Shown piece by piece: positions 9,376 through 51,265 of a stretch of 57,074 nt of DNA (the stretch's first letter is position 1; each line of letters begins with the position of its first letter). The stretch is from Chrysophaeum taylorii (Eukaryota; Sar; Pelagophyceae; Pelagomonadales; Pelagomonadaceae), in assembly GCA_029834535.1 (NCBI GenBank), contig JAQMWT010000241.1, positions 1-57,074 of the forward strand, in the 5' to 3' direction. The position numbers and the translations under genes are program-made. The notes beneath the pieces were generated by a model, which saw nothing but the letters and a program-made list of their open reading frames with translations, was not told the DNA's origin and did not search any database.

Positions 9376-12804
<3,429 letters not shown>

Positions 12805-16488: not shown

Positions 16489-16490
16489 CT

Positions 16491-18312: not shown

Positions 18313-18391
18313 GAACATTTTTAAGAGGGATCGGTCAAGTTTGGTCAACAAGTTTGGTCAATTTCTTTCAAGTTTGCTCAATTTAATCCTT

Positions 18392-21909: not shown

Positions 21910-21930
21910 TAGTTTAACGACGTTTCGGTC
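21910..21930 (-). repeat. 21-bp motif, M1 copy 3 (inside third ORF)
   Basis: Minus strand GACCGAAACGTCGTTAAACT plus A, read as (T)ETSLNY in the third ORF. It is identical, synonymous sites included, to the copies at 40296 and 43460 in element C. Confidence 0.9.
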
Positions 21931-22388
21931 AACGTTAAAAAAAGGGGTGCAGGAAGTCTTAATGTTCTGCCTGAGTATAAGTGTGGCCGAACATTACATC
22001 CCGGAGTGATAGCGGTTCTGTATCTTCAGAGGATGATGCGTAGTCGTCAAGATGTTATACACGCGATCGAGCAACAGTAGTAATCAAATGCTGAATGGAT
22101 GGCTTGTATAGCCTGAGCTGTGCGACTCTGTGTTCGAACACGAGTCACAAGTAAACTGATCGGTGTTGTGACAATGGGGATGTGACCATTCTTCTTATGG
22201 TCGTCCGTGTTGAGGTGACTCAGCACTTCAGTGGGGAGTTCACGAGGTGTTTGTGCCTTGGAACTGTACGTGGTCGAGACTAGGAAAGTCGGTTATCAAC
22301 GATCATTGAGGCACTGCGCACAGAAAAGGAATGCGATAAAATGAAACGTTCGCGTTTGGGGCCTCTGTAATCAGTCGTAGAGTTGCTC

Positions 22389-22790
22389 CTAACCCTGCGA
22401 TCGCTAACCGTTGGTTGCGATGGAGGACGGCGCCTAGCACGCTTGCTCCCTGCGGCGGCCCCGGCCGTCCCGGAGTGAGACGGTGCCTGCTCGCCTCCCG
22501 GGCTGGCCGGTTAGCACCCGGAAAGTCCGCGCTGGGATGGGGTTCGCTCGGTCGGGCAGAACGCGACGGACAGGTCGATTGTTCGCGGACCAACACGTCC
22601 GCGGCCTGCGACGCTTTTGCACGACCTCGCACAAGACCGCGCGCAGTGGCGGTCCACCATCAACAAGTCCGTCCTCGTCCGTCGCCCTGCCCCAACTGCG
22701 TGATTTTCCTCTGTGATTCCGTACCGGCTCTTGCCGGTCCGGCCTGGCTCCCATGCTCGGGAGAGGTCTGAAGTTAGTTAGTTAGTTAGT
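22389..22790 (+). mobile_element. SINE-like retroposon with (TTAG)n tail, copy 2
   Basis: This is a second copy of the element at 16879-17283, here on the plus strand. It begins near CTAACCCTGCGATCGCTAACC and ends GAAGTTAGTTAGTTAGTTAG. It breaks the M1 third ORF between codons matching residues on either side in element C. A clear target-site duplication was not found, unlike copy 1. Confidence 0.75.
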
Positions 22791-23276
22791 AGCAGCCAAT
22801 AGAAGCAATAGCAGGAGCAGCTTCCCAAAGTATAGTAATGGGTAAGCGCATGGATATGAATGTGGTCAGGTCTACAAACAACGAAAAGTCAGTAGACTCA
22901 TAGGTCAGTGTGAGTTCCACTCGCATACAAGAAGAGAGAAATGGGGTGACAGGGTCACGGAAGTTCTCAAGGAGAGAGACTCGTCGCTCGTAAGCAGCAT
23001 AGTCAACACTGAGGCCGTCCTGGAACGTCAGCGACTGAGGTGAGATATGCACGGCTGGTGTCGGTGCAACCGCAGCAGCCAGTGTGGTAGCAGTAGTAGC
23101 AGTCATGGTTCGTTGCTTTTGCAACAACCTGGGGGAAGGTTCGGCCGTGGAGAGCGAGAAAGGACTGTCCTTCAACCGACTAGGGAGATGCCGCGGCCAC
23201 GGGAGTGCCAAGAAAAGACATGAGCAACACTCGCACGCGTACAAAAATTTGTGGCAAAAGAAGGTAAGGCCAGGGC

Positions 23277-23297
23277 TAGTTTAACGACGTTGCGGTC
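23277..23297 (-). repeat. 21-bp motif, M1 copy 2 (after pol stop)
   Basis: Minus strand GACCGCAACGTCGTTAAACT plus A, lying 18 nt past the M1 pol stop codon and in the same frame (TATSLN then TAG). It sits between pol and the third ORF, as in elements C and B. Confidence 0.9.
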
Positions 23298-23314: not shown

Positions 23315-26300
23315 TCAATCCTGTAAAGGCTTGTCGTCAGAGGCATGATGCATACCGAGTAGAGAACGAAAAGTGGAGAACTCAGCAGCAAGTGGCTTTG
23401 TAAAACCATCCGCCACGTTTAGCTTGCCGGGAACATGATGGACTCGTATTTTCTGTAGCGAGATGTACTCACGGATTTAAACCATCTGGTCGACAGTGCC
23501 TTGGATCGAGAGGACCCATCTGGGTTATTAGAGGTGTGAACAGCGGCAGCATTGTCAGACAAGAGAGGTAGGCTTCTGATGAAGCGCATATCTTCAGCAA
23601 TTGGGTTGTCATTGTCATCGAAGTCAACAGGGTCAGCGGTGTTCTCACCATTAGCATTGTTGACGTAGAAGGGGGGGGTTGACGACAAAGGAGAGTTCCA
23701 ACAACAGCTTGCGTAGCCAAACAGCTTCATCAGCACAAATACTGAGGGCAATCAACTCAGCTTCGTGAGTTGAGCAGGAGACAATCGGTTGAAGTTTGCT
23801 TTTCCAACCAATAAGGCAGTTGAAAAGATAGAAGACAAACCCGGTGGTAGATTTCCTATCTTCCTGTGCTAAGGAAGGGGCATTGTCAGCGTCAACCATG
23901 GCAACTAAGGGATCAAACTGTCCAGTAGATACATCCTGCGGTTGGTAGTCGACCACAGTGGATAGATCAATTCGATTAGCGGAGACAGTGCGAAGGTGAG
24001 CTTCAATGGCATTACCTTTAGGATGGAACCAGAGGCGAAGTGAGCGGTTTTCCGGCTTCTTGAGGTAGCGAAGCAAATGCTCTAGCATTTGGACGTGAAC
24101 ATACGTGGGTGCATGCATACCACGCGAACATCTGCCCAAGGCTTGCGAGAAGTCAGGTCTGCAGGCAACTTGCATGAACACCAGCTTGCCAAGGAGGGTG
24201 GCAAAGTGCGAATTGATGTACAACTCTGTTTCAGAGCTGGGAGTGCCATCTTTATACTTGAAGGACGATGACATAGGATATTTAAGCGGGGTCAGTTGCT
24301 GCAAGACTGGGTGATCAGCGAAGAGTTCATCCAGCTTGGCTTGCACATCCAGAGAAATGGAACCGTCAGATGTGCGACACACACGCATGCCGTTTGTGGA
24401 GGGCATCCTGTAATTCAGTACGAAGAGGGTCGTCATTGGACACAATAACAATGTCGTCTACAGACAGACTGCATACGACGAACTTAGCATGTGCGGATAC
24501 TCGAGCATATAGGCAAGAGTCCGAATGCAGGCGTTTGTAGCGAAGGCTACGGAAGAAGCCGTCTATCTCTTTGTTCCAAAGAGATGGTGATTGCCGAAGT
24601 CCATAAAGTGACTTCAGCAGTTTCGGTAGACGTCGGCCCTTGTACTTAGCGTCATCGGGGTCGATAAGCTTGATGCCGTCTGGTAACTGAACATAGACGT
24701 TGGCATCAATGTCAGACTGAACGAAGGCGTTCGGGACGTCTGCATGGTAGACAGGCAATTGCTTGTATGCTGCAATAGCTAGTAGTACCCGGATTGCGGT
24801 CATGGTGGCCATGGGGCTGAAGGTGCCAAAGAAATCGGCGCCAAGAGATGCTAGGAAGCCACGTAGCACGAGGCGAGCCTTGTGCTTGACGTATTTGCCT
24901 GCAGAGTCTGTTTTAATCTTCAGCACCATCCTGCTGTCAATAGGACGAGAGACACCGTCGGGTAAGGAAAGTTTGAAGCAGCCAAAGCGGATAATGTCGT
25001 GGAGTTCCTTGGCGATGGCCTTGAGGTAGGCGTGCCTGTTTTCAGGCGACAAACCGTGGAGGCACTTGAGTTTATATTCGTCAATGGAAACGTCAGCTTC
25101 TTGGACCTTATTCTCGTCAGGGAGACGTCGTCAGGACCAACAATGGCTGGTGAATTATAGTTTAGCGACGTTGCGGTCGAGGCAGTGTGCGCAACTTCGG
25201 GATAAGCGGAAACAGCGTCAGTAGGAGGAGTAGGAGAAGCAGATTCCAGTTGAATATGGATAGTAGGGTCGGTGTGTAAGACCTGGGTGATAAACTCTGT
25301 AGAGACCAGAAGGTATTCCTCCAAGTCAGCCAGAGATGCAGAAGTAGCGCCAAACTCGGAGGAGTTGTGATCAATAAAGCTGGTCGGGGCCAGGTACGTA
25401 AGTGCATATTGTAAGGAAGAAGTGCCAAAGGCAGCAGCGTGTTCAGTGAACGCAGATAAAAGGGGCTGAGGAATGGGGCACGTGGGTGAACCATCAGCAG
25501 TTAAAAAGGTTGCAGCTGGGATGCTGGATGCGCACTTGGCGTGGGCGAAGTAACCATCGACGTGCGGGTAGCGGGCAAGTAAGTCAGTACGCAACGGGAG
25601 AAGAAGACGAGCTAACAACGCATGTTCCCCCTCTGAGCAGATAGCAGACCAGAGGATACCACCACTGAGATGAAGGGCGGAGAGGGCGGGAGACTTGAAC
25701 GTAAGAAAGTGGTGGCGAAGATCCCAGCGGAAATCGGCGAGTTTGCAACCAGCGGCTTTGTAAGCACCAATAGTAGACGCTTGTAGCCGGGCTTGGATAG
25801 TTTTCATAGAAGTGGCCTTGAGGGTGTTGGGCTGTTTGGAACCTGGGACAAGAATGAGGTCATCTTGTGCAAAAAGGTCTTTGTAAGAAGGAAGCAAGGG
25901 CGGCGGTGACATAGAGCCAGAATCGTCGGCGAGAATGTTAGAAGAGGGAGAAGAGGCAGGAGCAGGGGACGAAGAAGGAGCTGAAGGAGGTGGGGAGTGC
26001 CCCCTCTGAGGATGAGGAGTCCGTGTCCCCCTCTGAATGACATGGTCGTGGATAGCGGTGTGGGGTGTGGGCGAGAAAGGCGCGGGAGGAGCGTGAGGCG
26101 GAGGAGCAAGTTCAGGATCAGGAGTAGGATGCTGAAGCATGTAGAGGAATTGCAGCTTGGACGAAACACGAATTTGTCCGTTTTCAGGGTTGAGGACGAC
26201 GTCAGCGAGATGGTCGACGCGTGGGGAGACGAGCGGGTTTTGCGCGTTGGCGCAACAGAAATACAGATATTTGCGGCGGCACGGTTCCCACTTGTGGTGT

Positions 26301-26350
26301 TCATGGGGCTCCAATAGAAGGTAACATTCAGAGCCAAAAACCTTGAGCAT
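23315..26350 (-). pseudogene. Copia-like pol of element M1: linker domain, RT, RNase H
   Basis: Read from 26350 down. It begins with an integrase tail (VFGSECYLLLEPHEHHKW, RKYLYFCC), then a Pro-rich stretch. The unassigned linker domain follows (AYKAAGCKLADFRWDL; about 25780-25250), then TATSLNY. Reverse transcriptase has KHKARLVLRGFLASLGADFF, YHADVPNAFVQ and CSLSVDDIVI; RNase H has VDADNAP, RKSTTGF and STHEAELIAL. The copia tail ends ALSTRWF and NVADGFTKPL. Reverse transcriptase copies the element RNA to cDNA. Frameshifts at about 25120, 24400 and 23690 inactivate it. It is family 1, closest to element C. Confidence 0.88.
25158..25178 (-). repeat. 21-bp motif, M1 copy 1 (before RT)
   Basis: Minus strand GACCGCAACGTCGCTAAACT plus A, read TATSLNY in pol between the linker domain and RT. 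The matching site in element C is at 40296-40316. Confidence 0.9.
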
Positions 26351-26351
26351 G

Positions 26352-27530
26352 TCATGTTGGGTTGTAGAGTGGCTGTGGCGGACTCAGGAAAGCATGATGA
26401 ATGCGTTCGAGCGTGGCGTTCGGGAGAAGGTTGTAGCTTTGAACGGTGTGTATCACCGCCCACGGAAACATGGTGGCTGGTTCCACGATCTTGGCGCCAC
26501 GATAGTGAGCTTTAAGGAGAGAACGAAGGCGAGTTGAGGTGGCGGAGGCGATGAAACCGATGGCGGACTCAACTTCAAAGTTAAAGTGGTGCATGTGCGG
26601 CGGGAAGGCGATGAGTTGAATGCCCTTATCGACGCGGTACGGGGAGGTAATGTGCTGGCTAAAGTAGGGCTTGAAGGCATCGGAGTAGAGGGTGCGCATG
26701 TGCACGTTGAGTTGTGTACGACAGAAGTCATACACAAAATCCAGAGCTTGAGTGAACTCCGTGGCGTTGGTGGTGCGTGTAAAGTACACCAAGAGAAATT
26801 TCGAAATGAGTTCCTTGAAGACGATGATACGTGTGAAGCCTCCCCATTCGGATGGGATGGTCACATAGCCGCCGTCGCACGCCCAGACGCGTCGGCGCGA
26901 CTGTCTGCTAGGGCTCCGGCTTTCTTTCCGCCGGCGCGGACGCGAGCTGTTACGGCTCTTGTCGCGGCGTCGGGGGCTCCGGCTATCTCGACGGCCCGGT
27001 CGTGTCGAAGACGATCGGCCGTGTTCATCTTTCAAGTGCTTCACGGAATCCATGACCGTGGTCAGCTGCGTGCCCATGTCGTTGAGTCTGCTCTGAATAT
27101 CATGAGCGGCCCTCGAACCGAGAGTGGCATCTGAAGTGCCATCATCGCGCGACTGGGTGTCTTTCTTCTGTCGACTCTCCCATCTGCCTCGAGAGAGAGG
27201 TTTCTTATCGTTTTCGATGTACTTGCACATCGCAGCATAGTAGTCATCGTGTTCGCGGGTGCAAATGACGCGGCTCCCATGTTCATGCTTGTTGTGGGTC
27301 GAGAGCAAAAATCCACAATCCTTGCATGTGAGCTCGTACCACTTTTTTGGATTCTCTTCTAAACGTAACGATTCAAATTCCGTCTTCTTATCTTTCGGTC
27401 CCGAAGCAAGCGCTCGGCCTCCGCGTCCAGACGGCGGTTTCTGCGGCTTCCCGCTCGACGGCGAATTGCGGTTGTTCCGCTCCGCCAACGCGGTCGCGAA
27501 ATCGTTCTCGAGCCGCGTAATCAGTGACAA
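26352..27530 (-). CDS. Chimeric ORF: gypsy-type Gag C-half fused to copia-like integrase core
   Basis: A single open frame of 392 residues. Residues 1 to about 215 continue the gypsy-like Gag of 27521-28873. They include a CKDCGFLLSTHNKHEHG zinc-like segment, a coiled coil and an Arg/Ser-rich tail (RRRDKSRNSSRPRRRKESRS). At VWACDGG it passes without a break into the copia-like integrase core, where homology to element C begins. The integrase part has D in ACDGGYVTIP, D in LYSDAFKPYF and E in NFEVESAIGF, so D-D-E is kept though the usual DNG is absent. It ends at a frameshift after PQPLYNPT, continuing in the M1 pol frame. The fusion probably arose by recombination or template switching. Whether it is translated is unknown. 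Confidence 0.75.
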   Translation of the reverse strand: MSLITRLENDFATALAERNNRNSPSSGKPQKPPSGRGGRALASGPKDKKTEFESLRLEENPKKWYELTCKDCGFLLSTHNKHEHGSRVICTREHDDYYAAMCKYIENDKKPLSRGRWESRQKKDTQSRDDGTSDATLGSRAAHDIQSRLNDMGTQLTTVMDSVKHLKDEHGRSSSTRPGRRDSRSPRRRDKSRNSSRPRRRKESRSPSRQSRRRVWACDGGYVTIPSEWGGFTRIIVFKELISKFLLVYFTRTTNATEFTQALDFVYDFCRTQLNVHMRTLYSDAFKPYFSQHITSPYRVDKGIQLIAFPPHMHHFNFEVESAIGFIASATSTRLRSLLKAHYRGAKIVEPATMFPWAVIHTVQSYNLLPNATLERIHHAFLSPPQPLYNPT

Positions 27531-28873: not shown

Positions 28874-28904
28874 ATCGGCTCCGGCTCGCTCTAATCGGCC
28901 AAAG

Positions 28905-29484: not shown

Positions 29485-29672
29485 CTTGAGGATCGGCTGT
29501 TGCTTTATGATTAAGATATTATCGAAACACAGAAATCAGGGTGACACATGTCACGGAAATGGAAGATGATGTCACAGAGAAAACTGACATCATCAGAACG
29601 GAGTAGGGTGCCCCTGATAAGGGGGGACCCTAAATGAGGGGTAAGCCTTAGGAGGCGGGAGTTGCCGCCACA
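29485..29672 (-). repeat. Probable 5' LTR and leader of the gypsy-like element
   Basis: On the minus strand a boundary at 29672 reads TGTGGCGGCAACTCCCGCC, similar to the start of the gypsy LTRs elsewhere (TGTGGCAGTAACGCCC). It lies exactly where copia element M3 pol breaks off (after SSALMEH). Downstream, before the Gag ORFs, is GACCAGGAACGG, resembling the post-LTR sequence at 44942. The right boundary is clear; the other end is approximate. Confidence 0.5.
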
Positions 29673-31810
29673 TGCTCCATTAGTGCGGAGGACTGCGAGT
29701 AATACCATAGGCGAAGATTGCGATTCTCTGGTTTACGGAGATAGCGAAACATTCCAGCTAGTATCTGGACATGCAGGTGGGAAGGACCATGCATTCCACA
29801 AGAACAACGACTTAGACTTTGAGAAAGACCTGGTCTACAGGCTAGTTGTACAAAAGTTAATTTCCCGAGAAGTGTCGAGAAAGTGTGGAGGATGAACTCG
29901 CCCGTCTCAGTGGACGGCTCTCCAGTTTTACAAACAGTTGAAGGAGACATGGGGGTCGAAGATGGTCGTAATTTTAACGAGATAGAGCGCTCCTCAAAGA
30001 TGGCATCAAGTTTAGCTTGACAATCCAGTGAAATATAACCATCGGCAGTACGCGTTACTCGCATACCTAAGAGCGTGTGAACTTCTTCGAACTCGTCGAC
30101 GGAATACTCCTTTTTCATAGCTTGTTGAAACTCGAGACGGAGGACTTCTGAAGTGCAAATGACAACAACAACATCCACGGATAGAGTGCATAACAAGAAA
30201 GTAGCATCATCTCGGACTTTCGCATAAATACTTGTGTCCGTCCGAAAGCGATGATAGCCTAGTGCGTCAAAGAATCCATTCATTGTTTGATTCCAGAGCG
30301 CGGGAGTCTGTCGTAGTCCATAAAGCGACTTGAGCAGCTTGGGAAAACGACGTCCTTGGTATTTAGCATATTCAGGATCCATTGGACAAATGCCTTGCGG
30401 TAACTTGACATAGACGTGAGAGTCGATGGGGGCTCGGACGAACGCGTCGGGCACGTCTATATGATAGACGGGAAGCCGAAGATGCGCAGCGAGAGCTAGG
30501 ACACAGCGGATGCCTGTGAGCTGCGCCATCGGGCTGAACGTGTTGAAGAAATCGGCATGGAGGGAAGCGAGAAACCCCCTTAGCACCAACCTTGCCTTGT
30601 GCTTGAGATATTCGCCGGCGGCGTTAGTCTTTATACGTAACACCAGCCTGGTATCAATGGGCTTGGAGTTGGCCATCGGCAGCGATAACTTGAAGCAGCC
30701 GAACTTAACAATGTCGAAGATCTCCTTGGAAATCGCGGAGATGTAGGCCTTGCGATCAGCGTCTGAAAGACCTTTTATACAGGCCAGCTCATATTCATCG
30801 ATCTTGATGTCTTTAGCTTGGATCTTGTATTCATCAGGGCCGACGGTGCTAGGATCTTGATCTTGGGTTAAATAGGTGATCTCATAAGAATCAGCATCTG
30901 AGTGAGCGGGAGTATGGTCAGGAATTTCGACTAGTTGAACTACAAGTAGAGGATCAGCGTGGAGGTGAGACTCAATATAGTGCGCCTGCACGGTGATGTA
31001 GTCCTCGATGTCGGAGAGGTGGGGCTCTGAAGCTCCGTAGGAGGCTTCATTGTGTGCCATTGTTGCATGGGGAGTTAACAGCGCGTACGCGTATTGAGCG
31101 GGAGGAACTTGAAATGCTTGGGCATGTTCAGTGATTAAATGAACAAGAGCACGAGGTAGGTGGAAATCCGAGAGGCTGGGGTCATCAAGAAGGTGAACTG
31201 GCGTGGCAGCCGATGGATGGATGTGAATGCCTTGACACACACCTGAAGATGAGCGTGAAGAATATTGCGGTAGCGCTTGGTGAACGTGATGATGAAGAGT
31301 TGGTGTGAATTCCCCCTCTGGAGGCATAGCCATCCAGTGGATGCCATTAGCGGCATGTAGGGGGTGGAGGGTGAGGTCGAAGAAAGTGATATATTGCTTG
31401 GACAGATCATATTTAAAATCGGCGAGCGTACCACCAGCTTGTTTATAAGCAGCGATCGTTGGCGAGGCAATGCGAGCTTGTACAGGTTGAAGATTGGTTT
31501 TACGGCGAGGTTGAGGTTGATTAGCAGCCACAGTAGCTAACAATGAGTAAGCATTGTTTAGAGAGTCGTGGGATTGATGAATAGTATCCATCAATAATAC
31601 TTTAGGTGGCTTGGTAGCGGTAGTACCAGGGATATATGGAATCCATGATGCGGGTTTATCCAAGCATCGGTTAGATGAAAATTTGGTCTCATTATATATC
31701 TTTAACAAGAACTCCAATAACGGACGAACATCGTTAGGATCAACTAGCTTTAAAACTTCAGGATTGTGCGCGAGTTGTTCCCAGAGCGTGTCTCGTAGAG
31801 TTTGCACCAT
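29673..31810 (-). pseudogene. Copia-like pol of element M3 (linker domain and RT), truncated
   Basis: The open frame of family 2 starts in Gag-derived sequence and passes directly to the linker domain (PQPRRKTNL, AAYKQAGGTLADFKYDL, GIHWMAMPPEGE). Protease and integrase are missing. Reverse transcriptase follows with KHKARLVLRGFLASL, YHIDVPDAFVR, LYGLRQTPALWNQ and the catalytic box SVDV where relatives have SVDD. The second catalytic aspartate is thus Val and the enzyme is inactive. RNase H is lost: after LRKPENRNLRLWYY and SSALMEH the gypsy-like LTR begins at 29672, carrying the stop. The Gag-to-linker junction falls in sequence matching element B (CCTCAACCTCG), so a deletion at a short homology is likely. 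Confidence 0.85.
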
Positions 31811-32760
31811 TCCAATAAAGACTGAGAATAGCGCTCGTGATCAGAGGGATTAGCATATAGACGATAGATCTCCTCGTGAGCTTTGAGTGTGATTATGGAA
31901 TCATTAAATTGGATTGATGCTTCGTCATAATTTAATTGCTTTGCCTGAGTTTGGAAGGCAAGGAGTTGTTCGACAAATACATGAGCATACCAATTAACAT
32001 TTAAGGACATTCGATTAAACTGAGATTTAAGCTCAGTGACATCTGTACATGACACTGTCTCATAGTAATGGTAAGCTAAAAGCATTACTGCACGTAGTTT
32101 ATTAGGGTGTGCAGTAAGCGCATAAATCTTCTTTAATTGAGGCCACATGGCGAGGGCAGGGCGTTCTTGAGATTCTAGATTGAAGAACGTGTACAGGAAA
32201 CCGGCGTAAGTTTCACAATGTCTGATCCAATCGGCATTAGAGAGACCTGTAAAGGACATGTTAGTTAGAGATGGGTCATACACAATTGATTTAGTGAATC
32301 GGGTATCTACTAAAGTGAGGACACGCTTAACATCCTCATTTAATTCGGGACGAACAAGATTATATGACTCTTGAAAGAAAAGTCGTTCGAGATTATTACG
32401 AACATCAACTGATAGTTGATGGGAAGAGTTGACGTGCCAAGTCTTGAGATGATCAGGCAAGGCATCTTCATTAGATAATTGTAATTCGTTAGTTTTTTCA
32501 GCTTTCCATTGAGCGAAAATGATATCAACTTCGTGTTCGAGAAGTTGGTTATACTTTTTTTTTGCTCCGGAGCATTCCGGGCGTAAGCGTCGTACGAATC
32601 AAAGCAGAACAACGCGTCCACGTATGGGCTTGTCATATGCCTGCGAAGCATTTCAAGTTGTAAACTCACATTGGTCGAATTGTCTTGAAAGCGCAATCCG
32701 GAGTTGAGTTTATCAACGAGGATTTGTTCTTGTTTGCAAATATCAGTGGTGGATATTGGT
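31750..32760 (-). pseudogene. Copia-like Gag of element M3
   Basis: Helical, charged sequence upstream of the M3 pol frame is open from 32460 to 31750 and extendable upstream through a run of nine A at about 32551-32559, where the frame shifts. Segments include ICKQEQILVDKLNSG, EMLRRHMTSPYVDALFCF, YNQLLEHEVDIIFAQWKAEK and FVEQLLAFQTQAKQLNY. It stands where copia Gag is expected, and the helix pattern is like the Gag capsid of copia elements, but I see no CCHC knuckle. If right, family 2 has a normal upstream Gag, so the third ORF after pol is an extra gene rather than a moved Gag. It ends head to head with element B at about 32760. Confidence 0.6.
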
Positions 32761-32761: not shown

Positions 32762-35514
32762 AGCACCCCCAATGATGCGGCGCAGAGGGGGAATGCTATG
32801 CCTACCGACACTGACCATGAGAGGGGACTCCTTCTTCTCATCTCCATGCTCCCTCTCCCGCCCCCGCATTTGCTCCAGCTGCTCCCGCGCCCGCTACTTC
32901 CACCACCACACCTACATCTGAAGTGTCGCCCGACACTCTGTCACTTTTACCATCTTATCGGTCTCTCTATTCCCAGTATGTCCTCCGTCTCACCCGTGGT
33001 CCTCATCACCCTCAACCTCGTCGCAAAACCAATCTCAAGGATGTTCTTACTCGTATTGCTTCGCCTACTGTTGCCGCTTATAAACAAGCCGGTGGTACGC
33101 TTGCCGACTTCAAGTATGACCTCTCCAAGCAGTACATAACGTTCTGCGACCCCACCCTCCACTCCCTTCATCTCGCTCATGGCATCCACTGGACGGCTAT
33201 ACCTCCAGAGGGGGAATTTACACCATCCCTTCATCACCATGCGCACCAAGCGATTTCACAGTCCTCTTCAGTTATGTGTCATAGGAGCCATAGCCACCCA
33301 TCGCCTGATGCTCCCCATGTTCACTTCTGCGACGACGTCAACCTTGCAGACTTTCACCTTCCTCAAGCTCTCGTTCATTTAATTTCTGAACATGCTCACG
33401 CCTTTCAAGTTCCTCCCGCTCAATATGCTTATGCTTAGTTCACGCCCCACTCCATTTTGGATCATAATGACGCTTCTTATGGTGCTTCCAAGCCTCATCT
33501 CTCCGCCATCGAAGACTATATCACCGTGCAATCGCATTACATTGAGGCCCACCTTGGTGATGCTCCTCTACTAGTCGTTCAACTCGTCGAAGATCCCGAT
33601 CACGCTCATCTGCCCGATAATGTCGCTTCTTACGCAATTACTCATCCGACGACGACTCATGACCCCAGCGCGGTTGGTTCGGACGAATACAAGATTCAAG
33701 CCATAGATATCAAAATTGATGAATATGAGTTGAACTGCCTCAAAGGTCTCTCAGACGCTGATCGCAAAGCTTATGTTGCTGCCATCTCCAAAGAGATTTT
33801 TGACATTGTTAAGTTTGGCTGCTTTAAACTAGCGCTGCCAATGGTCAACTCAAAGCCTATTGACACCCGTCTCGTCCTAAGTATAAAAACCAACGCTGCT
33901 GGTCAGTACATTAAACATAAAGCACGCCTGGTCCTACGAGGATTCTTAGCCTCTCTGGGCACCGATTTCTTCAACACATTCAGCCCTATGGCACAGCTTA
34001 CCGGCACCCGTTGTGTTTTGGCGCTAGCAGCTCATCTGCGACTTCCCGTCTACCATGTCGACGTCCCTAACGCTTTTGTTCAAGCTCCCATCGATTCTCA
34101 TGTCTATGTCAAACTGCCACAAGGCATTTACCTTCTCGATCCTGAAGATACTAAATACCAAGGCCGCCGTCTCCCAAAGCTACTTAAATGTCTCTATGGA
34201 TTGCGTCAGAGCCCTGCCCTTTGGAATCAAACTATAAACGGCTTCTTTGATTCATTAGGCTACACACGATTTCGAACAGACACATGCATTTACGCTAAAG
34301 TCCAAGCTGACGCTACATTTCTAATTTGCACGCTCTCAGTAGACGACGTCGTCATTACTTGTACTTCGGCAACTCTACGTCGTGAGTTCCAGCAAGCCCT
34401 GAAAAAGGAATACTCGGTCGACACCTTCGAGGAAGTCCATACTCTCCTAGGCATGCGCATAACGCGTACAACTGATGGCTCTATATCACTGGACTGTCAG
34501 GCTAAACTTGACGCATTTTTCGAAGAGTACCCCATTTTAATGCAGTTACGTCCCACTTCCACACCGATGTCACCATCAGCCACGTATAAAACTGGAGAGC
34601 CATCTTCTGATATGGACAAGTTCACCCTTCGTACCTTCTCTACTCTACTCGGCAAGCTCACGTTTGTCCAATTAGCCTGTCGCCCCGGTCTATCACAAAG
34701 TCTCAGTCGTTGCTCTCGAGGAATGCATAATCCAGCATTTCTACATGTTCAAGTACTAACAGGAACGCTCCGCTACTTGCGCAAACCCGAAAATCGCAAT
34801 CTTCGCCTCTGGTACTACTCTGGTTCTTCCGCTCTAATGGACCATCTTCGACTTCTTATCGGTAATCGTACTGACATGGCCACCATGTTGGACTACACTA
34901 ACGAACAAGTCAATTCAGGTAATTTTGATCCACTGGTCGCATTCGTTGATGCCGATAATGCACCCTCTTATGAACAAGACCGCAAATCTACAACCGGTTA
35001 CGCTATCTTTTTGTTTGGTTCTCTCATCACTTGGAAGTCTAAGCTGCAACCTATTACAGCTACTTCTACGCATGAGAGTGAACTTATCGCCCTTAATATG
35101 TGCGCCGATGATGTGGTCTGGTTACGCAAATTGCTAACGGAAATGGCATTCGTTATAAATCCTCACTTCTATCTCCGCCAACCTTCAGGGAAAGACCTGC
35201 TACTAGATTATGATGCTCACGACAATCCCCTCCCATCGGACATGTCGTTCATACGTAACAGTCCTATACTTGGAGATTCGGCCTCTGCTATTCATCTATC
35301 TAATAACCCCGACAGCGCGACTAAGGCTAAAGCTATCAGCACACGCTGGTTCCGTATACGCGACTACGTACAGTTGAAACGCATACGTCTACATCATGTT
35401 TCCGGCACCCATAATATCGCCGATGGATTTACCAAACCCTTTGGAGCTCCACTCTTCAGCAGATTTCGCACGTTACTCGGCTTACAACAACCCATAGCTC
35501 AACAAGATGGTTAA
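32762..35514 (+). pseudogene. Copia-like pol of element B: linker, RT, RNase H (one nonsense codon)
   Basis: This is family 2. The 5' part (Gag, protease, integrase) is missing. Sequence starts in the Pro-rich linker; the frame runs from 32923 to 35514, interrupted only by TAG at 33436-33438. The linker domain reads RIASPTVAAYKQAGGTLADF and GIHWTAIPPEGE. Reverse transcriptase has KHKARLVLRGFLASLGTDFF, YHVDVPNAFVQ and SVDD (34336-34347) in place of the usual YVDD. RNase H has FVDADNAP, DRKSTTGYAIFL and STHESELIAL; the end has LGDSASAIHLSNNP and NIADGFTKPF. Apart from one stop it is the best preserved RT/RNase H in the window. The third ORF follows after 113 bp. Confidence 0.9.
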
Positions 35515-35531: not shown

Positions 35532-35552
35532 GTCCGAAATGACTTTAAACTA
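35532..35552 (+). repeat. 21-bp motif, element B (after pol stop)
   Basis: GTCCGAAATGACTTTAAACT plus A matches the family 1 motif at 17 of 21 positions and sits at the same place: after the pol stop, in the pol frame, ending in a stop. With the preceding ATG it makes a tiny ORF, MSEMTLN then TAA. No other copy was seen in element B. Confidence 0.7.
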
Positions 35553-35627
35553 ACCCTGCTATGTAAAGGAATACTGGCTCGCTAAAATGTGAAATGCAAC
35601 AAAAGATGTGATGTGGAGATTCCTCTC

Positions 35628-37640
35628 ATGATGAATCCCACTAAAAACAAAGATGCTGCGAGCCGACGCCACTCTACCCTGAACCGTGGTCGCGGTGGTA
35701 CACTGTCACTATCCCCACCTTTTAATGCTCTAACTCCAAGCGTTGCACCGACTAGTTCCCCTAATCGGAAACATCAAACCTATTTGTCGGTGGCTCAAGG
35801 ACATCAATCTACGCCCGTGACGCCCAAGGCGCCCAAGGCAACTGCCCAACAACAGTCTAAATCGCAAGCAGCGAAGTCTGAGTATTTCCTGCTCAAACAC
35901 TGCAAATTTGACGTACTGGCGATGATGTCCGGGAACGTTACTGCTCTTGGTTCTTCGCCACCCAATTTTCTCATTCCGCAACATAAGGATCCCCAGTGCT
36001 GGCTTAAGTCTTTGCAGCAGCTGCTTACGGAAGCACAACAGACAGAGTTTGTAGATAACGTACAATATCTTAGTTCATTGCTGTGCGTCAAAGCAAAGCG
36101 CATTCGAAACGCCCCCGCTATATCTCCTAATGAGGGGATACGTTTTCATCGCTTCCCACCCATTAAAGGGGTTGTCAAAGTACATGTGACGTGTACAAAG
36201 TGCTACAATAAAACTGATATGCCGGGCACACCAGTCGTGCTCATCATCTGTAATGAAGATGAACTTAAAACTGACAGGATTCGCCAAATTATTGAGGATC
36301 ATCTCGCGTCTGAGCAACACGCATCGCACTGCTTTGACGTACCACGCCCTTTCTTTTTGTTGATTTGTGTGCTGTGCAATCGGTCACACCATGGGATAGC
36401 TTTAATTCGCAACAGTCAGCAACCCTTCCAACTCTCTTGTTTTAATGATCCGGCTGCCCACACAAGAGCTATAATCCTCCGCCTTGGAAAGTCAATTGCT
36501 ATTAACAAGCAGCTCAAAGAGGCAATCATGCAGACTGCAACATCCCTTAAAGTTGATGCCTCTAAAATCATTGTTAACCTTGACGATAACGCCATGCTCT
36601 TACTTCAGCTGCCCTTTATTTCGAGTGTAAATCTTGAGATTCTTGTAGCAGCTTGGTCTTTGTTACAGTCTGTTGAAGATAAAGTATGTGTAGTGACCAA
36701 CCCGGATGAGCTACTTAACGTGCTTGTCGAACGCTTCGTTAATGATGTTTCACACCAATTTGACGTAATTTCTTCCAAGACGTTACCGCCAATGCTTAAT
36801 TATTTTCGTCAACTATCACCTGAAATGCAAACTGCCTTTAAAAATGTGCTAATCCAGGTTGGCTACCCTTCGGACATAATTGATGTCTTTTCAGATGATA
36901 CTTCTTCTGAAGGTGTTTCACCAGCGCCGATCGACAATCCACCCGCGGAACCCACGCCAGATAAAGCTAACGACATTATGGCTGAATCTTTACACCAATT
37001 AAAAGAAGAGGTTCGGTCTTTATCCTTACGTCTCACTAATACCGAACAGCAATTGATGGCACGAGATCAACAACTATCGCTTGCACTAGCGTCTCTCACA
37101 CAGATGCAAGAGACTTACGAAAATTTAAACACTCAAGTGATCGAGAACATCAAGCATGTGTCTCTGTTAGACAACATCTTATCAAGTCTTCAGATGCATC
37201 AGGACATCATAATCCCGTCCTCTGCTGTATTTGTCCATATCATTTCTCGGTCGCTTATCTCATCTATTGGACAGCTCCCTCCAGATACGTATAATGAGGC
37301 ACAGCAAGTTCAAATCGACGCAGCAGCTCATCACCTCCACACAGCTATGTCTGATGCACATGATCGTGTTATTCCTGCATTGGATCTACACGCTCTTACA
37401 CCAGATGCTGCTATGTCGTTCCTTTCGTCTGTCATATCACCCTTGGTCACCTTGAGTGATGCAATGACTACGCACAATACCAACACTGCTAACGACCTAC
37501 CCTCTGATGATCATGATTCGTCTTCTCCAGAGTTAAAGGAACTGGACGATAATAGCGAAGATGAATTGGACCACACATCTGATGTTGTGGATACCGATAC
37601 AGCTTCTTTGCGTAACATCACAACACGTTCGACATCATAA
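35628..37640 (+). CDS. Third ORF of copia-like element B (intact, novel)
   Basis: A 670-residue intact ORF after pol; start chosen at the double ATG (35628). The N-terminus (1-100) is Ser/Thr/Pro/Gln-rich. The core (about 150-370) has CTKC (about 188-191) paired with HLASEQH about 33 residues on, then CVLCNRSHH, then HTRAIILRLGK and LLLQLPF. A Pro/Asp-rich hinge (420-450) leads to a coiled coil (about 455-530: LHQLKEEVRSLSLRLTNTEQ). Next come a helical domain (HLHTAMSDAHD, AMSFLSSVISPL), an acidic run, and the end SLRNITTRSTS. No signal peptide or clear membrane segment is seen, so a classical envelope is unlikely. Homologues of matching order follow pol in C, M1, N1 and N2. The Cys/His core suggests nucleic-acid binding and the coil suggests self-assembly, both inferences. 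Confidence 0.85.
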   Translation: MMNPTKNKDAASRRHSTLNRGRGGTLSLSPPFNALTPSVAPTSSPNRKHQTYLSVAQGHQSTPVTPKAPKATAQQQSKSQAAKSEYFLLKHCKFDVLAMMSGNVTALGSSPPNFLIPQHKDPQCWLKSLQQLLTEAQQTEFVDNVQYLSSLLCVKAKRIRNAPAISPNEGIRFHRFPPIKGVVKVHVTCTKCYNKTDMPGTPVVLIICNEDELKTDRIRQIIEDHLASEQHASHCFDVPRPFFLLICVLCNRSHHGIALIRNSQQPFQLSCFNDPAAHTRAIILRLGKSIAINKQLKEAIMQTATSLKVDASKIIVNLDDNAMLLLQLPFISSVNLEILVAAWSLLQSVEDKVCVVTNPDELLNVLVERFVNDVSHQFDVISSKTLPPMLNYFRQLSPEMQTAFKNVLIQVGYPSDIIDVFSDDTSSEGVSPAPIDNPPAEPTPDKANDIMAESLHQLKEEVRSLSLRLTNTEQQLMARDQQLSLALASLTQMQETYENLNTQVIENIKHVSLLDNILSSLQMHQDIIIPSSAVFVHIISRSLISSIGQLPPDTYNEAQQVQIDAAAHHLHTAMSDAHDRVIPALDLHALTPDAAMSFLSSVISPLVTLSDAMTTHNTNTANDLPSDDHDSSSPELKELDDNSEDELDHTSDVVDTDTASLRNITTRSTS

Positions 37641-37674: not shown

Positions 37675-38155
37675 TGTTCACTGTTTTTATGTATATTGCA
37701 CAAGTTCCTTCTCAAGAACGTCTGAAATGCATAAACCGTTTCCACACGTTGAGGGGGTCCAGAGAGCTACACTATTATGTGTGCGACACTGGGACATTTC
37801 ACACCTATCTCTACACGAGGGCTTTCTCTCAGTAATACGGCTTTCCCTTCTTCCTTTCTCCCTTACCCTTCCGCAATTATATTTTCGTGACTATGAAGAA
37901 CCCAGTCTGAAGCTCTTTTCCAACATGGAGTAGGCCTCCAGGTGCGTACCGTCAGGTACGGGGTTTTCTGTTTAATTAACAGAGGCTTCGTTCCTCGTTG
38001 TCAGTGTAAACGCTTCTATGGGATATAATGTCCTTAAGGAGTTAGGGCTTAAATCTCTACCTTGTGTAGTAGCATGTGGCAAGCGGAATTGTCTGTACAC
38101 GCCTAAGACTGCACGCCGGGTCTACCATGTACCCGGAGAGGGTCAAATCTCTCCA
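37675..38155 (+). repeat. Copia family 2 LTR (3' LTR of element B)
   Basis: This 481-bp LTR starts TGTTCACTG and ends GGTCAAATCTCTCCA. It is the reverse complement of the N1 and N2 LTRs and directly follows the third ORF (stop 37640). The frame starting at 38018 runs out of it into element C, but only the part after 38155 belongs to C. Element C is truncated exactly at this boundary. Confidence 0.88.
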
Positions 38156-41100
38156 GGAATAACACCTGAAGAAGCCCTCTCTACAACCCCCCCTGCTGAT
38201 GATGCGGACACTAGCGATGATCCTGATGCCCCATCACTAGATGCACCCACAGAACTCAAATTCAATGTCCGTCGGAAGAAACACATTCCGGTCAAGGCAA
38301 TTCCTCGCAAATCGCTCGCCCATGGTACCATCGAATACCAAAATGCCGAAGAACGCGCCAGCAGCTTCCATAACGCACATCACTGTCCTGACAACGTTGC
38401 TGCTAAAGCCCCAGACGTCCTTGCTCGCCCGGGCTTCTCAGCATCCGATATTCCATACAGGGATATGTGCATAGACTGCATTTGCCACAACAAAGGCCAC
38501 CGTCGCGCCCATAATAACGAAACCAAGCCCAATTTTGAACAGACCCACCGACCCGGTGAAGTCTGGGCTTGCGATGGTGGCTACGTAACCATACCTTCTG
38601 AATGGGGCGGCTTCACCCACATTATTGTCTTCAAAGAACTACTCTCGAAGTTCCTACTAGCCTACTTCACTCGCACTACTAACGCAACCGTATTTACGCG
38701 AGCACTAGACTAGTTACATGCCTTTTGCAAGACTCAACTCAACGTGCATCTACGCACAGTATACTCCGACGCATTCCGGCCGTACTTCAGCCAACACATC
38801 ACTACTCCCTACAGGGTCGAACACGGCATCAACCTTGTTGCTTTCCCGCCTTACCTTCATCATTTTAACCACGAAGTCGAACAGAGCATAGGCTTTGTCG
38901 GCTCCGCCTCCTCAACTCGCCTCCGTAACCTTCTCAATGCTCATTACCGTGGCGCCAAGATCGTGGAACCTGCAATCCACTTCCCGTGGGCTGTGATCCA
39001 CACCACTCAATCATACAATATCCTCCCAAATGCCTCGCTCGAACGCATTCACCATGCCATCATCAGCCCTCAGCAGTTTCTGTATAATCAACTAGCAGCA
39101 CCTCAGCATGATCTCCTCAGGATCTTTGGCAGCGAGTGCTTCCTCATCCTCGAGCCTCATGAACACCACAAGTATGGGCCCTCTCGGCGACGCTATCTCT
39201 ACCTGTGCTGCGCCAACTCCCAAAATCCACTTGTCTCTCCTCATGTTGACCATCAAGCTGATGTTGTCCTTAATCCTGAAAATGGCCAGCTTCGCATCAC
39301 CTCCAAACTGACCTTCACCTACATGATTCGCCGCTCCACCTTGGATCCTGAACATGCTCCTCCACCTGATGCTCCGCCAGTATCCTTCGACATTAACCCT
39401 CATCGAGATGAAGACCCCGATGATGCGTTGCAGAGGGGGATTCATACTGAGAGGGGGCACCCTCCCGCTCCTGCTCCGTTGCCGACTCCGCCCCATTCCC
39501 TTAAGCCTACATCAACAGCCTCACCTCCTGCTGACGACAATACTCCTGCTGACGACAATACCTTTCGCCACCGCCAATTCTTCCTTCTTACAAGGACTTG
39601 TTCTCTCAAGACAACCTTCGACTTGTCCCGGGGACTAAGCGCCCCAACCAGCGGAAAGCCTCCTCCATGACTTCTGTCAATGCTCGGCTCCAAGCTTCTA
39701 CGGTTGGTGCATATAAAGCCGCTGGTGGCAAACTCGCTGACTTCCGCTGGGACCTTCAACATCGCTTTCTCGATTTCAAATCACCCACCCTCACCGCCCT
39801 CAACACATCTGATGGCATCCACTGGACGGCTCTCTGCCCAGAGGGGGAACAGGCTCTGCTGGTCAAACACCTCCTTCCATCGCGCACCGACCTTCTGTCT
39901 CGCTATCCCCTTATTGATGGTGTTTTTTCGCAAACCAAATGCGCATCCAGCATTCCAGTAGCTACACACCTCATCACCGATGACACTCCGTGTGGCCACC
40001 TCCCGTCTTCACTTGTCGCTATGTTCGTGGAACATGCTTCAGCGTTTGGTGTCTCTCCATTGCAATGCGCTTACTGTTACCTGGCACCTACCAGTCTCAT
40101 CGATCACTCGCCATCTGAGTTCGGCGCTACATCCGCCGAACTGTCTGACCAGGAGGAATACCTCCTATGCTCTCCCGAGTACATGACCCAGGTACTTCAT
40201 GAGGAACCACTCCTTGTGGTTGCCTTGGAACCTGACAATTCTACCCCCTCCACTTGCGCCACTCACGCATATCCTGGAGTCCTTTACACTGCTTCGACCG
40301 AAACGTCGTTAAACTATGGCTCTCCAGCCACCGTAGGTCCGGACGAACACAAGGTCCAAGAGGCCGACGTATCCATTGATGAGTACAAGCTCAAGTGTCT
40401 TCAAGGCCTTTCTCCTGAAGACAGACAAGCCTACGTCAAGGCCATCGCAAAGGAACTACATGATATAGTGCGCTTCGGCTGCTTTAAGCTATCTCTACCT
40501 GATGCTTCTACTCGTCCAATTGACAGCCGGCTCGTCCTCAAGATCAAGACAAACGCGTCTGGCGATTACATCAAGCACAAGGCCAGATTAGTCTTGCGTG
40601 GATTTCTAGCCTCACTTGGCGCTGATTTCATTGCGACGTTCAGCCCTATGCCAACTATGACCGCCATGCGTGTCATCTTAGCAATTGCGGAGTACAAAAA
40701 ACCTACCGGTCTACCATAGTGACGTGCCCAACGCGTTCGTTCAGTCCGACATCGACGCACACGTCTATGTCCAACTCCCGGATGGCATCAAACTACTTGA
40801 TCCTCACGACGATAAATACCGTTGCCGCCGCTTACCCAAGTTGCTGAAATCCCCCTATGGACTCAGACAATCTCCCTCTCTCTGGAACAAAGAGATCGAC
40901 GGCTTCTTTCGGAGTCTCGAATACAAGCGACTCCATGCGGATACGTGTTTATATGTGCGCACATCCCACGCTCGCTTTGTCATTTGCAGTTTCATCAGTG
41001 GACGACATTGTTATAGTGTCAAATGATGACACTCTCCGCACAGAGCTACAAGGAGCGTTACACGAGCGCTTCTCTGTAGAACAATTCGAGCCAGTCCATA

Positions 41101-42172
41101 CTCTTCTGGGAATGCGTGTCTGCCGAACGTCGAATGGATCCATATCGTTAGATGTCGAAGCCAAACTAGAAGCATTATTTACCGACCATCCCATACAAAA
41201 AAAACTCACTCCACTACGGTATCCTATGTCATCTAATTTTCCTTATAAGAAGGCTCCCCTTCTACCGACGAGGAAATTTATATCCACGATCACTTCGCTA
41301 CTCTACTTGGTAAAATGGTCCTCATGCAAGTTGCTTGTCGCCCCGATTTCTCCCAAGCTCTAGGACGCTGTTCCCGAGGTATGCACTCTCCCACCTTTGT
41401 GCATGTCCATATGCTCTGTCACCTCCGAAGGTACCTCAGCAAACCTGCCAATCGAGCTCTTCGTCTCTGGTTTCACCCTAAAGGGGATGCTATCGAAAAC
41501 CATCTACGCGTTATTTCATCTAATAGAGATGACCTGTCAACAATAATCGACTACCGGGACAAAGACATCGCTGCTGGCAAGTTCGACCCTCTAGTTGCTA
41601 TGGTGGATGCCGACAACGCTCCTTCACTGGAACAGGAAGACAGAAAGTCCACTACTGGCTTTGTTTTCTGCCTGTTCAACTGCCTCATCGCTTGGAAAAG
41701 CAAACTACAACCCATAGTTTCGTGTTCTACCCACGAAGCTGAGCTTATCGCTCTCAGCATCTGCGCTGACGAAGCAGTCTGGCTCCGTAAGTTACTTCTT
41801 GAGCTCTCGTTTGTTGTTAATCCGACATTCTATATGAATACGCAAGCTGACCCTCCTTCCGATTTTGACGCTGATGACAATCCTATCGCCGAAGATATGC
41901 GCTTCGTCAGAAGCCTACCCCTTTTGTCTGATAATGCTGCAGCTGTGCACACTTCCAACAATCCTGACGGTTCTTCTCGTAGCAAAGCCCTTTCCACTCG
42001 ATGGTTCAAAATTCGCGAATATGTCGCACTACAGAAAATTCGTGTTCACCATGTCCCTGGCAAGTTAAACGTAGCTGATGGCTTCACAAAGCCTCTTGCA
42101 GCCGACTTTGCCACGTTCCGTTCTCTTCTAGGTATGCACCATGCTACCGACGCAGACCAAGAAGATACCTAA
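38156..42172 (+). pseudogene. Copia-like pol of element C: integrase, linker, RT, RNase H
   Basis: This is the longest pol in the window, family 1. The integrase zinc domain (FHNAHHC, CIDCICH) is at 38360-38500. The catalytic core has D in ACDGGYVTIP (38569), D in VYSDAFRPYF and E in NHEVEQSIGF, with no DNG box; then IFGSECFLILEPHEHH and RRRYLYLCC. A Pro-rich stretch follows (39350-39560), then the linker domain (AYKAAGGKLADFRWDL, GIHWTALCPEGE; 39690-40240), TETSLNY, and RT (KHKARLVLRGFLASL, YHSDVPNAFVQ, SVDDIVIVS). RNase H (VDADNAP, RKSTTGF, STHEAELIAL) ends before NVADGFTKPL. Defects: TAG at 38711-38713, frameshifts near 39600, 40700, 41000 and 41250. Gag and protease are missing, cut by the B LTR. 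Confidence 0.9.
40296..40316 (+). repeat. 21-bp motif, element C copy 1 (before RT)
   Basis: GACCGAAACGTCGTTAAACT plus A, read TETSLNY in pol between the linker domain and RT. Identical to the copies at 43460-43480 and 21910-21930. Confidence 0.92.
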
Positions 42173-42183: not shown

Positions 42184-42204
42184 GACCGCAATGTCATTAA
42201 ACTA
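42184..42204 (+). repeat. 21-bp motif, element C copy 2 (between pol and third ORF)
   Basis: GACCGCAATGTCATTAAACT plus A, starting 12 nt after the pol stop and in the pol frame (TAMSLN then TAG). It contains the tiny ORF ATG TCA TTA AAC TAG, 41 bp before the third-ORF ATG at 42246. Confidence 0.9.
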
Positions 42205-42245
42205 GCCCTCATCTTTTGCCACTACCTTTTTTTTGTGCGTCGCCA

Positions 42246-44264
42246 ATGCATCACTGGCGCAGCAGCCACCCACGTGGAGTCACGCCCGCCCGTCGCGAAC
42301 TGCCTCGCACACTTACGCCCGCTGAATCGTCTACCAACACTCCTCCGAACCGCAGGAAGCCGAATCGCGACGACATTACCCGTTTGCTCTCGTCTTCTGC
42401 CGCTGCGATCCGTCCTGACTCCAACTCTCCAGCAACATTTGCCGACGCTGTGATGTTTAATGTCCCTCAGCAGGAACAAGGATTATCTATCCTGCCAGAC
42501 CAAAAATTCAAACCTCCTTTCACCAGTTTATTATCGTCCTTTTTACATACCAACCTGTCCAAAGCACTCGATTCTATCTACGCATCTCGCGATCACTTGG
42601 ACTACCAGGTCTTCATGGAACTGTCGAACTTTTGTTCAGTCAGGACACCAGTCGTCTTCCCTCTTCCCTCTGCACCTGCAATACATGCTACACTCTGTTA
42701 TCGAGGTCTCAAGAAGGAGACTCAGCAATCCACATTCCACTGTCTTCAGTGTTTCGACAAGGACGGCAAACCGCTCCAAATCTGTGTCTCCAATTACAAA
42801 CGGAAGATAGACGAGCTACCTGCCGCTGTCTTAGAACATCTCGCCAGCGAATCACATATTAGGAACGCCTTCATACCAGTTTCTGTTCCTACTATGGGTA
42901 TGTGTTGTGCATGTAGAAATTCCGACCACAATATCTTCTCGTTTCTTTTCTTCGTATGGGACGCACGTCTGGTCGTTTTTCCTTGTGAGTCATCACCCGC
43001 TGGTCACCTCCGTGCCACCATCATCCGTTTTTACTTTCTCCCAATGGATATGCACGCACTGCTACAAGAACTAATCAAGGAACACACTCTACCCGCTGAT
43101 ATAATTATGCCTTCCTCACTCTCAACAGATTCTCAACAAGTGGTGGCCTACCCCTTCAACCTCAATTTTATTTCTCGGCTTCATCTGGAACACTTGTCGC
43201 TTAATTTGACAATTGTTTGCACACATGCAAAGAAGCAGTCGATTATTAAGGCAAGTGCTTATCAGCCTTTGGTTCACGCTCTCTGCCGCTCCCTCGTACA
43301 GCACATTGCTGAGTACAACACACTAGCTGATGATGAACGACCACCGTCTATCTTTGACGAAATATCATCACCGACTACCTTCCACGATACCGATCGCAAA
43401 GATTTTGCTAAGCTCTTATCATCACGTTACCCTGATCTCCATGACGAACTTACCGGTGCGACCGAAACGTCGTTAAACTACCCACCACTGGTATCTACTG
43501 CCCCGGCACCAACACAGCCTATTACTACCACCTTCCCAGACCTTGAGGCATTATCTTCTTAAGTAACTCAACTTGCTCAACAGGCTCTGGCTCTCCAAAC
43601 GTCATATGGGCAACTGGATCAACGCCTCCACGCCTTAACTACCGAAAATGCAGCACTACGGTCTGACTTAAACACTGCTGCCACAAACCTCCGTGACATG
43701 GAAAATCGGCTATTTCCAGCCACTACTAATACCAATATTTTGCTGGTAACCCTATTCAAGGTGTGTGAGTTACTCAACAGACTCACTCTCGCTCTGAATG
43801 ACCAACACGACTTAATGTTTGGCATGCCTGATGATACTCTCATTCAACTCCGAAATGAGTTAATCCGCACGACTCATCATCCAGCCTTGCAACAAACTGA
43901 GTCTCTCCAAGACCCTTTCACAATCCCACAGTTCGTCGAGAATAACCTCGATGAACTACAATTGAGCAGTCTTGTCCCACAAATCTTACGTCAATTACTC
44001 GCTCTTACTCACCGAATCATACCTCAACATTGCTCCGCAAAGAGCATCAATCGTCCTTCCGAACCTGAAGATGATGACGTTCCCGCCATAGTGAGGTCCA
44101 AGAGGACCAAGCAATTTCCTCGCCGTTATCATGGACTTCTGCCTCACATTCACGTTCACTTCCCTCCTTCAAAGTTCCCCTTGCTAAAAGCATTCAGAGT
44201 GTTATCACCAATTCCAAGCCTTGACATATGTCGGCTGATGAACCTGTTGTGCCACTTTATGTGA
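42246..44264 (+). pseudogene. Third ORF of copia-like element C (one nonsense codon)
   Basis: One frame of 672 codons before the stop, from ATG 42246 to TGA 44262-44264, is broken only by TAA at 43560-43562. The length is almost the same as the intact copy in element B (670), though the sequences are far apart. Order is the same: Ser/Pro/Arg-rich start; CLQC (about 166) paired with HLASESH; CCACRNSDH; HLRATIIRF; then TETSLNYPP (43460); a coiled coil (about LALQTSYGQLDQRLHALTTE); ENRLFPATTNTNILLV; and NNLDELQLSSLVPQILRQLL. The stop codon lies inside the 5' end of the LTR. Strong divergence with kept layout suggests selection on a real protein. Its role is unknown. Confidence 0.82.
43460..43480 (+). 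repeat. 21-bp motif, element C copy 3 (inside third ORF)
   Basis: GACCGAAACGTCGTTAAACT plus A, read TETSLNY and followed by PP, lies between the Cys/His core and the coiled coil of the third ORF. Confidence 0.92.
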
Positions 44265-51227: not shown

Positions 51228-51265
51228 GAGAAAAAGGCCGAAAAAAACCCGACTTGGCCTTACTA

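Follow-up and report, generated by a model that had tools for sequence, protein, structure and literature searches.

Copia elements are usually described as encoding Gag-Pol only. The reading frame that follows RNase H and precedes the 3' LTR in the elements described here, termed ORF3, is a genuine gene in its own right, the third in an algal Ty1/copia lineage. Complete elements that carry it are present in the genome and its open copies are under purifying selection, which bears out the proposal, made from the DNA letters before any search, that it is a real gene. ORF3 is a selected and so far lineage-specific member of a general kind that is already known, namely an extra ORF after pol. What is new is its motif content, its link to a methyltransferase-like pol domain and a common border word of 21 nucleotides.

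ORF3 in the window and in complete elements

The window, meaning the whole stretch of 57,074 nucleotides that was analysed, holds ORF3 copies or relics of families B, C and D (Table 1). The family B frame is intact from the ATG at 35628 for the 670 codons that had been claimed, and from stop to stop it spans 35586-37640 (684 aa). Family C had been credited with an ORF of 672 codons, which is instead a damaged copy: its frame (42201-44264) contains an internal stop, and its final ~130 nt align with the related copy L039 in a frame other than that of the preceding part. An open C-type ORF3, 672 aa from stop to stop, is found elsewhere in the genome, in L039. Relics of ORF3 had also been reported, and three are present on the minus strand, which are not tied to the labels M1, N1 and N2 used for them at the time. 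The B element of the window is without its 5' part, and its pol remnant has one in-frame stop (33436-33438). Because all elements within the window are broken or truncated, complete copies were looked for elsewhere in the genome. The window also contains repeated GC-rich blocks of ~2.2-2.5 kb, partly 90-100% identical, at 47138-53149, and an ORF (9373-10221, plus strand) that we take to resemble part of the host gene for the MCM3 replication helicase.

Table 1. Positions of the features discussed (window coordinates unless a locus is named)
Feature	Location	Strand	Basis or remark
B-like ORF3 relic, Cys/His core retained	15139..16500	-	
B-like ORF3 relic, C-terminal part	17450..18325	-	
Family D ORF3 relic, interrupted	21300..23216	-	border words 21910-21930 and 23277-23297
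Family D pol relic	23351..26819	-	border word 25158-25178
B-like pol relic	29669-31630	-	combined Gag and pol span 29669..32759
B-like Gag relic	31445-32759	-	combined Gag and pol span as above
B-family pol remnant (end of IN region, RT, RNase H)	32821..35514	+	RVT_2 E 5.2e-41
21-nt border word, diverged (4 mismatches), B pol/ORF3 junction	35532..35552	+	same stretch in L008
ORF3, family B, undamaged, 670 codons	35628..37640	+	reading frame, genome matches, dN/dS
Cys/His module 1 of B ORF3 (C189, C192, H225, H231)	36192..36320	+	invariant A1 columns
Cys/His module 2 of B ORF3 (C247, C250, C271, H278)	36366..36461	+	invariant A1 columns
Coiled-coil-type stretch of B ORF3, residues 453-530	36984..37217	+	weak Pfam FAM76 match
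3' LTR, B element	37758..38157	+	93.6% identity to the 5' LTR of C509
C-family pol remnant (IN, RT, RNase H), broken	38276..42172	+	
Border word preceding RT in C	40296..40316	+	reads TETSLNY
Border word, C pol/ORF3 junction	42184..42204	+	3 mismatches
ORF3, family C, damaged	42246..44264	+	in-frame stop 43560-43562; frame change near end
Border word within C ORF3, directly ahead of coiled-coil part	43460..43480	+	reads TETSLNY
Divergent C5-methyltransferase-like domain, PR to IN	L032:1935-4265; L044:2869-5148; L034:965-2985	+; +; -	

The host genome comprises 70.8 Mb in 697 contigs. There are 84 light-harvesting-family matches in it, and a search for phycobilisome proteins found none, which indicates a photosynthetic alga. 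ORF B has at least 69 scored matches in this genome, where 65 of 784 candidates were scored, and 12 of the 69, window copy included, cover residues 1-684 without a stop. The first 438 codons of ORF C give 99 genome matches, including family D at 34-37% identity; at least 17 of the D rows among the matches listed have an open frame of at least 640 aa and a match without a stop. When the relic core at 15805-16488 (minus strand) is used as query, at least 150 scored matches are obtained, the weakest with E 1.2e-21. Of 150 RNase H matches, the first 100 were compared with the ORF3 matches listed; at least 73 have one on the same strand within the next 2.5 kb downstream, and the other 27 have none listed there.

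Complete B elements have the gene order LTR-Gag-PR-methyltransferase-like-IN-RT-RH-ORF3-LTR, so that ORF3 does lie after RNase H and ahead of the 3' LTR, where the sequence-only reading had placed it. In the copies on C509, C668 and C37 the LTR pairs are ~400 bp long (98.0, 99.0 and 98.0% identity), the ORF at the Gag place starts ~480-490 bp past the 5' LTR, and the 3' LTR begins ~120 nt past ORF3. The gene order is identical in a D copy on C44, whose LTR pair shows 89.2% identity. Common to B and D are TTATGGGCCCAG, located directly after the 5' LTR, and CGAGGGGG, located ahead of the 3' LTR, which we infer to be the primer site and the polypurine tract. The LTR ends are without TG...CA: those of B start with TCCAGAGAG and finish with CTCTCCAGG (L035:3311-3719), and those of D start near CTGCAGAG and finish with CTCTGCAG (L072:608-924).

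Recognition of Gag, PR and parts of IN relies on characteristic motifs and on position. RT is assigned by Pfam, with PF07727 (RVT_2) matching at E 5.2e-41 in the window and 4.7e-42 in P0004. The integrase lies 5' of RT, an order seen from tblastn matches in L044 and from the reading frames of L031. Its assignment draws in part on characteristic motifs, and Pfam adds SH3_retrovirus in P0004 (E 6.6e-5, below its cut-off) and rve in a window relic (E 0.014). With an RVT_2-type RT, an integrase upstream of RT and paired LTRs, these elements belong to Ty1/copia. A single in-frame stop separates Gag-PR from the methyltransferase-like part in three of three B copies (L032:1932-1934; L033; L031), as if B pol were reached by stop read-through.

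The ORF at the Gag place is common to B and D (34% identity). It has no Gag family match in Pfam, and no CCHC pattern was found in the forward frames of the five Gag-holding loci (L035, L032, L033, L044 and L034). The absence of a visible knuckle from this Gag, together with the coiled-coil, structural-looking nature of ORF3, could be taken to mean that ORF3 is a duplicated or displaced Gag. However, complete elements carry their own Gag upstream, which in the complete B elements is unrelated to ORF3, and hhalign of ORF3 against Gag gives a probability of 0.18% (B) or 0.08% (C/D). A displaced Gag is thus a very improbable explanation, and it was rejected.

That ORF3 is not merely a relocated Gag had been argued previously from the Gag-like region M3 upstream of pol. 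The conclusion stands and the argument does not. M3 (27521-28966, minus strand) overlaps an ORF that runs on into a D-type integrase (26352-27635), and in L044, a fuller copy of D, the Gag differs from M3 and is B-like (34% to B). M3 therefore resembles a gag from a different type of element that has been joined to D pol; it is not the Gag that bears on this question. The stretch 26352-28966 (minus strand), which holds M3 and the D-type integrase, has the appearance of a recombination product between two types of element.

Homology and selection of ORF3

Identity between the ORF3 of family B and that of C/D is 16-19% in alignment A1 and 22-25% across local BLASTP stretches. In hhalign, the two align over 232 columns with a probability of 96.4, an E-value of 1.1e-9 and a score of 82.7, where the best of 25 column-shuffled controls scores 22.7. 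This comparison indicates that the ORF3 proteins of B, C and D are homologous, and the low identity with a shared CxxC...HLxSxxH / CxxC...C...HxRA core, noticed earlier, goes beyond chance. The columns that are invariant in the 15 rows of A1 include C189, C192, H225, L226, H231, C247, C250, C271, H278, R280, A281 and R285. B and C/D share two modules with eight Cys/His positions in all, and a coiled coil comes after them. The spacings in B are C-x2-C-x32-H-x5-H and C-x2-C-x20-C-x6-H, and they do not fit a CCHC zinc knuckle. Of 25 open copies, 22 have the complete joint pattern, the exceptions being L005, L025 and L050.

No Pfam family matches ORF B above its curated cut-off, and the best matches below it are FAM76 (residues 454-521, E 0.025) and Med21 (residues 55-160, E 0.079). 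Across the 15 A1 members the best Pfam matches are of the coiled-coil type (FAM76 in 6 of 15, best 2.2e-5; ATG16, 7.3e-6), and no zinc-finger family is among the best 25 families listed. Searches of 5.8 billion proteins, which depend on shared 5-residue words, found no relatives at the set E-value, either with a single-sequence query or with A1 as query (7999 candidates scored in each case). The PDB gave just one weak coiled-coil match (Max, E 0.047). None of 20 ORF3 pattern stretches in IMG/VR and none of 35 in GTDB genomes was confirmed, and no report of this gene was noticed in searches of open-licence PMC papers.

The dN/dS values were computed on open copies only. For family B, 16 of 31 fetched loci (L001-L030 and L056) had a long open frame and were codon-aligned, and 15 were excluded. 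The B set gives a median dN of 0.063, dS of 0.367 and dN/dS of 0.168 (120 pairs), rather than a dN/dS near 1. The median for D is 0.276 (7 copies, 21 pairs), the one C pair gives 0.245, and the RT-RH control gives a median of 0.109 (55 pairs from 11 B loci, a partly different set). Open ORF3 copies are under purifying selection. Values are higher among pairs with dS no greater than 0.1 (0.375 for 10 B pairs, 0.522 for 5 D pairs and 0.173 for 8 RT-RH pairs), as is expected if recent copies decay. Within B ORF3, dN/dS is 0.21 for residues 1-95, 0.10 for 96-160, 0.11 for 161-290, 0.20 for 291-420, 0.26 for 421-452, 0.16 for 453-530 (the coiled coil), 0.28 for 531-632 and 0.08 for 633-670. The Cys/His modules are located in residues 161-290, where constraint equals that of RT-RH. 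A chance ORF or a neutral relic is ruled out by the dN/dS values together with the full-length open copies.

A sense gene located between pol and the 3' LTR is at the place of env, and an envelope-like protein therefore has to be weighed. The usual hydropathy cut-off for a membrane span is ~1.6, and the peaks in a 19-residue window are slightly above it in B (1.74) and C (1.70). However, the maximum in D is 1.53, the peaks are found at non-homologous places (stop-to-stop residues 337, 511 and 581 in B, C and D) and contain charged or polar residues, and the acidic tail and the Cys/His pattern are unlike an ectodomain. We hold an envelope to be highly improbable. The prior statement that ORF3 is not an obvious env is upheld to the extent that hydropathy gives an envelope no support, and is to be qualified by the B and C windows of ~1.7.

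A methyltransferase-like domain and a border word

The region between PR and IN holds a divergent C5-methyltransferase-like domain, which is also present in the marine metagenome pol proteins P0020, P0022 and P0023. The region is colinear with C5 methyltransferases from the same genome. A first, shallow hhalign comparison with these enzymes gave 19%. After P0020, P0022 and P0023 were added, hhalign gave 98.3% (E 1.4e-14, score 98.8), with scores of at most 21.1 in 60 shuffles. There is no match of PF00145 to P0003, P0020, P0022 or P0023 at E up to 1 and no PDB match for the region, hence the description of the domain as divergent. The motif-IV cysteine is found in five of five rows, four of which have PC (DC in P0023), and the place of ENV reads E-M/I-T. 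It is uncertain whether the domain has methyltransferase activity. The nearest pol relative is protein P0005 of the pelagophyte Aureoumbra lagunensis (49% identity), followed by marine metagenome proteins P0006-P0027 (32-38%) and then by plant proteins (~28%). The closeness to Aureoumbra suggests a pelagophyte-like host. The Aureoumbra and metagenome pols were compared as protein sequences, and no pol relative was confirmed in IMG/VR.

The 21-nt border word, GACCGaAAcGTCGTTAAACTA, is usually read as T-E/A-x-S-L-N-Y or stop. In family D it is found at Gag|PR, MT|IN, IN|RT, the pol stop and mid ORF3, and in family C at IN|RT, the pol/ORF3 junction and mid ORF3. The B copies examined have only a version with 4 mismatches at the pol/ORF3 junction and none inside ORF3. 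There are 6 matches at up to 3 mismatches in the window, versus 0 in 100 shuffles, and 1588 at up to 1 mismatch in the genome, versus 0 for the reversed control. When 12 element pieces are translated in six frames, SLNY is found 10 times, always on the sense strand and in a polyprotein or ORF3 reading. Within ORF3, six of the seven D copies have the word, as do L039, L052 and L054; L042 has an altered form. In the 1.4 kb located 5' of a D element (L072) there is no match at up to 6 mismatches, and a match in L036 is flanking DNA. In a different type of element, a gag-like, coiled-coil ORF resembling M3 has the word twice, 87 bp apart (L066-L069); one copy in L069 has a changed codon, and L070 has the word at least once.

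A protease site as the sole meaning of SLNY is incomplete, given nucleotide identity at non-homologous places. A degenerate codon pattern for TETSLNY, which permits F in place of L, occurs at 353 places in the genome, and 82 of the first 100 listed are exactly ACCGAAACGTCGTTAAACTAY, a proportion for which the relatedness of copies accounts in part. Synonymous changes are present in three of the six D ORF3 copies that read TETSLNY (L047, L049 and L051; the seventh copy, L048, is without this reading), and these argue against a nucleotide-level constraint. A reading of the word as a -1 frameshift site, with G_UUA_AAC as the heptamer, was also considered. No consistent structure is predicted 3' of the word in six 90-nt stretches (z -2.42 to 0.50), and Rfam has no match to L044 or L045 at E up to 0.1. 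ORF3 lies in the pol frame behind stops in 5 of 7 D copies, the exceptions being L045 and L050.

One tentative suggestion is that the word punctuates the whole element as a cleavage or recoding signal, constrained as protein and as RNA, with ORF3 as a second polyprotein. If so, ORF3 would be part of the same programme and not an add-on gene. Since the word in C and D also separates the Cys/His half of ORF3 from its coiled-coil half, the ORF3 of these families is probably processed or expressed by the system that serves Gag-Pol.

Possible roles of ORF3 and comparison with known elements

The motifs and architecture of ORF3 suggest that its most likely role is a putative accessory one in nucleic acid binding. 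The sequence-only reading had likewise put forward, tentatively, an assembly or targeting protein that binds nucleic acid. We put at about even chances the fuller proposal that ORF3 is an accessory protein that evolves fast, binds nucleic acid and belongs to an algal copia lineage whose pol bears a methyltransferase-like domain. Such a protein would be soluble and bind zinc, may oligomerise via its coiled coil, and could bind the element's own RNA or DNA, thereby supplying a nucleocapsid-like or pre-integration-complex function. Perhaps it stands in for the CCHC knuckle not found in the element's Gag.

A less likely, though still credible, possibility is that ORF3 is a DNA-binding regulator, i.e. 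a zinc-motif coiled-coil factor that activates the LTR or counters host silencing beside the methyltransferase-like domain of pol. Cys/His modules together with a coiled coil would suit such a factor, as would the presence of that domain in the same element. ORF3 is also the fastest-diverging part between B and C/D (22-25%, with Gag at 34%, IN at 59% and RT-RH at 56%), as fits a host-facing protein. In B versus C and D, respectively, identities are 24.7 and 22.2% for ORF3, the lowest of the parts compared, 59.8 and 59.0% for IN, and 55.6 and 56.8% for RT-RH; Gag is 34.4% (B-D only). However, rapid divergence equally fits a flexible structural protein, and neither a DNA target nor, in Pfam, a known DNA-binding family was found. 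It is unlikely that ORF3 acts instead as an integration-targeting or nuclear-import factor that steers the pre-integration complex, a role for which its location after pol and its Cys/His plus coiled-coil composition can be cited, as can the nuclear roles proposed for some plant additional ORFs in the portion of the source available (PMC7264820).

As far as the available portion of that source goes, plant LTR retrotransposons can carry additional ORFs (aORFs) after pol and ahead of the 3' LTR, in sense (env-like) and in antisense (Grande, RIRE2 and Retand) (PMC7264820). Like them, the algal ORF3 occupies this place in many copies, is conserved and has no assigned function. It differs from them in belonging to an algal copia lineage, in having two Cys/His modules on the sense strand and in showing no conserved membrane segment by hydropathy, and no sequence relation to them was found. 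The ORF3 types listed in the accessible part of an account of bdelloid rotifer LTR retrotransposons are env, GDSL, DEDDy, coiled-coil CC and TM (PMC5408684). These resemble the algal gene, by description and not by sequence, in being family-specific, in being located after pol, in having a coiled coil in some cases and in not always being env. The bdelloid elements are retrovirus-like, and zinc-type modules are not mentioned in that part of the account, whose text has no occurrence of the word 'zinc'. A selected two-module third gene in several diverged families of one genome offers a concrete test of non-envelope third genes, and the lineage is suited to asking how elements handle host methylation and divide a polyprotein.

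Methyltransferases have been described, in the sections of the two sources at hand, in Symbiodinium LINE and DIRS and Klebsormidium Gypsy elements (PMC5890265) and in LTR Copia and DIRS retrotransposons (PMC12344493). As in the algal element, the domain lies within the element in these cases. The algal copia lineage differs in that its domain is divergent, lies between PR and IN and is unmatched by PF00145, and in that ORF3 is also present. PF00145 itself has 124 matches in the genome, one of which is in a long frame of L060 (E 1.1e-9). Other long ORFs that resemble retroelements, in L059 and L060, have a C5 methyltransferase domain that can be recognised as such.
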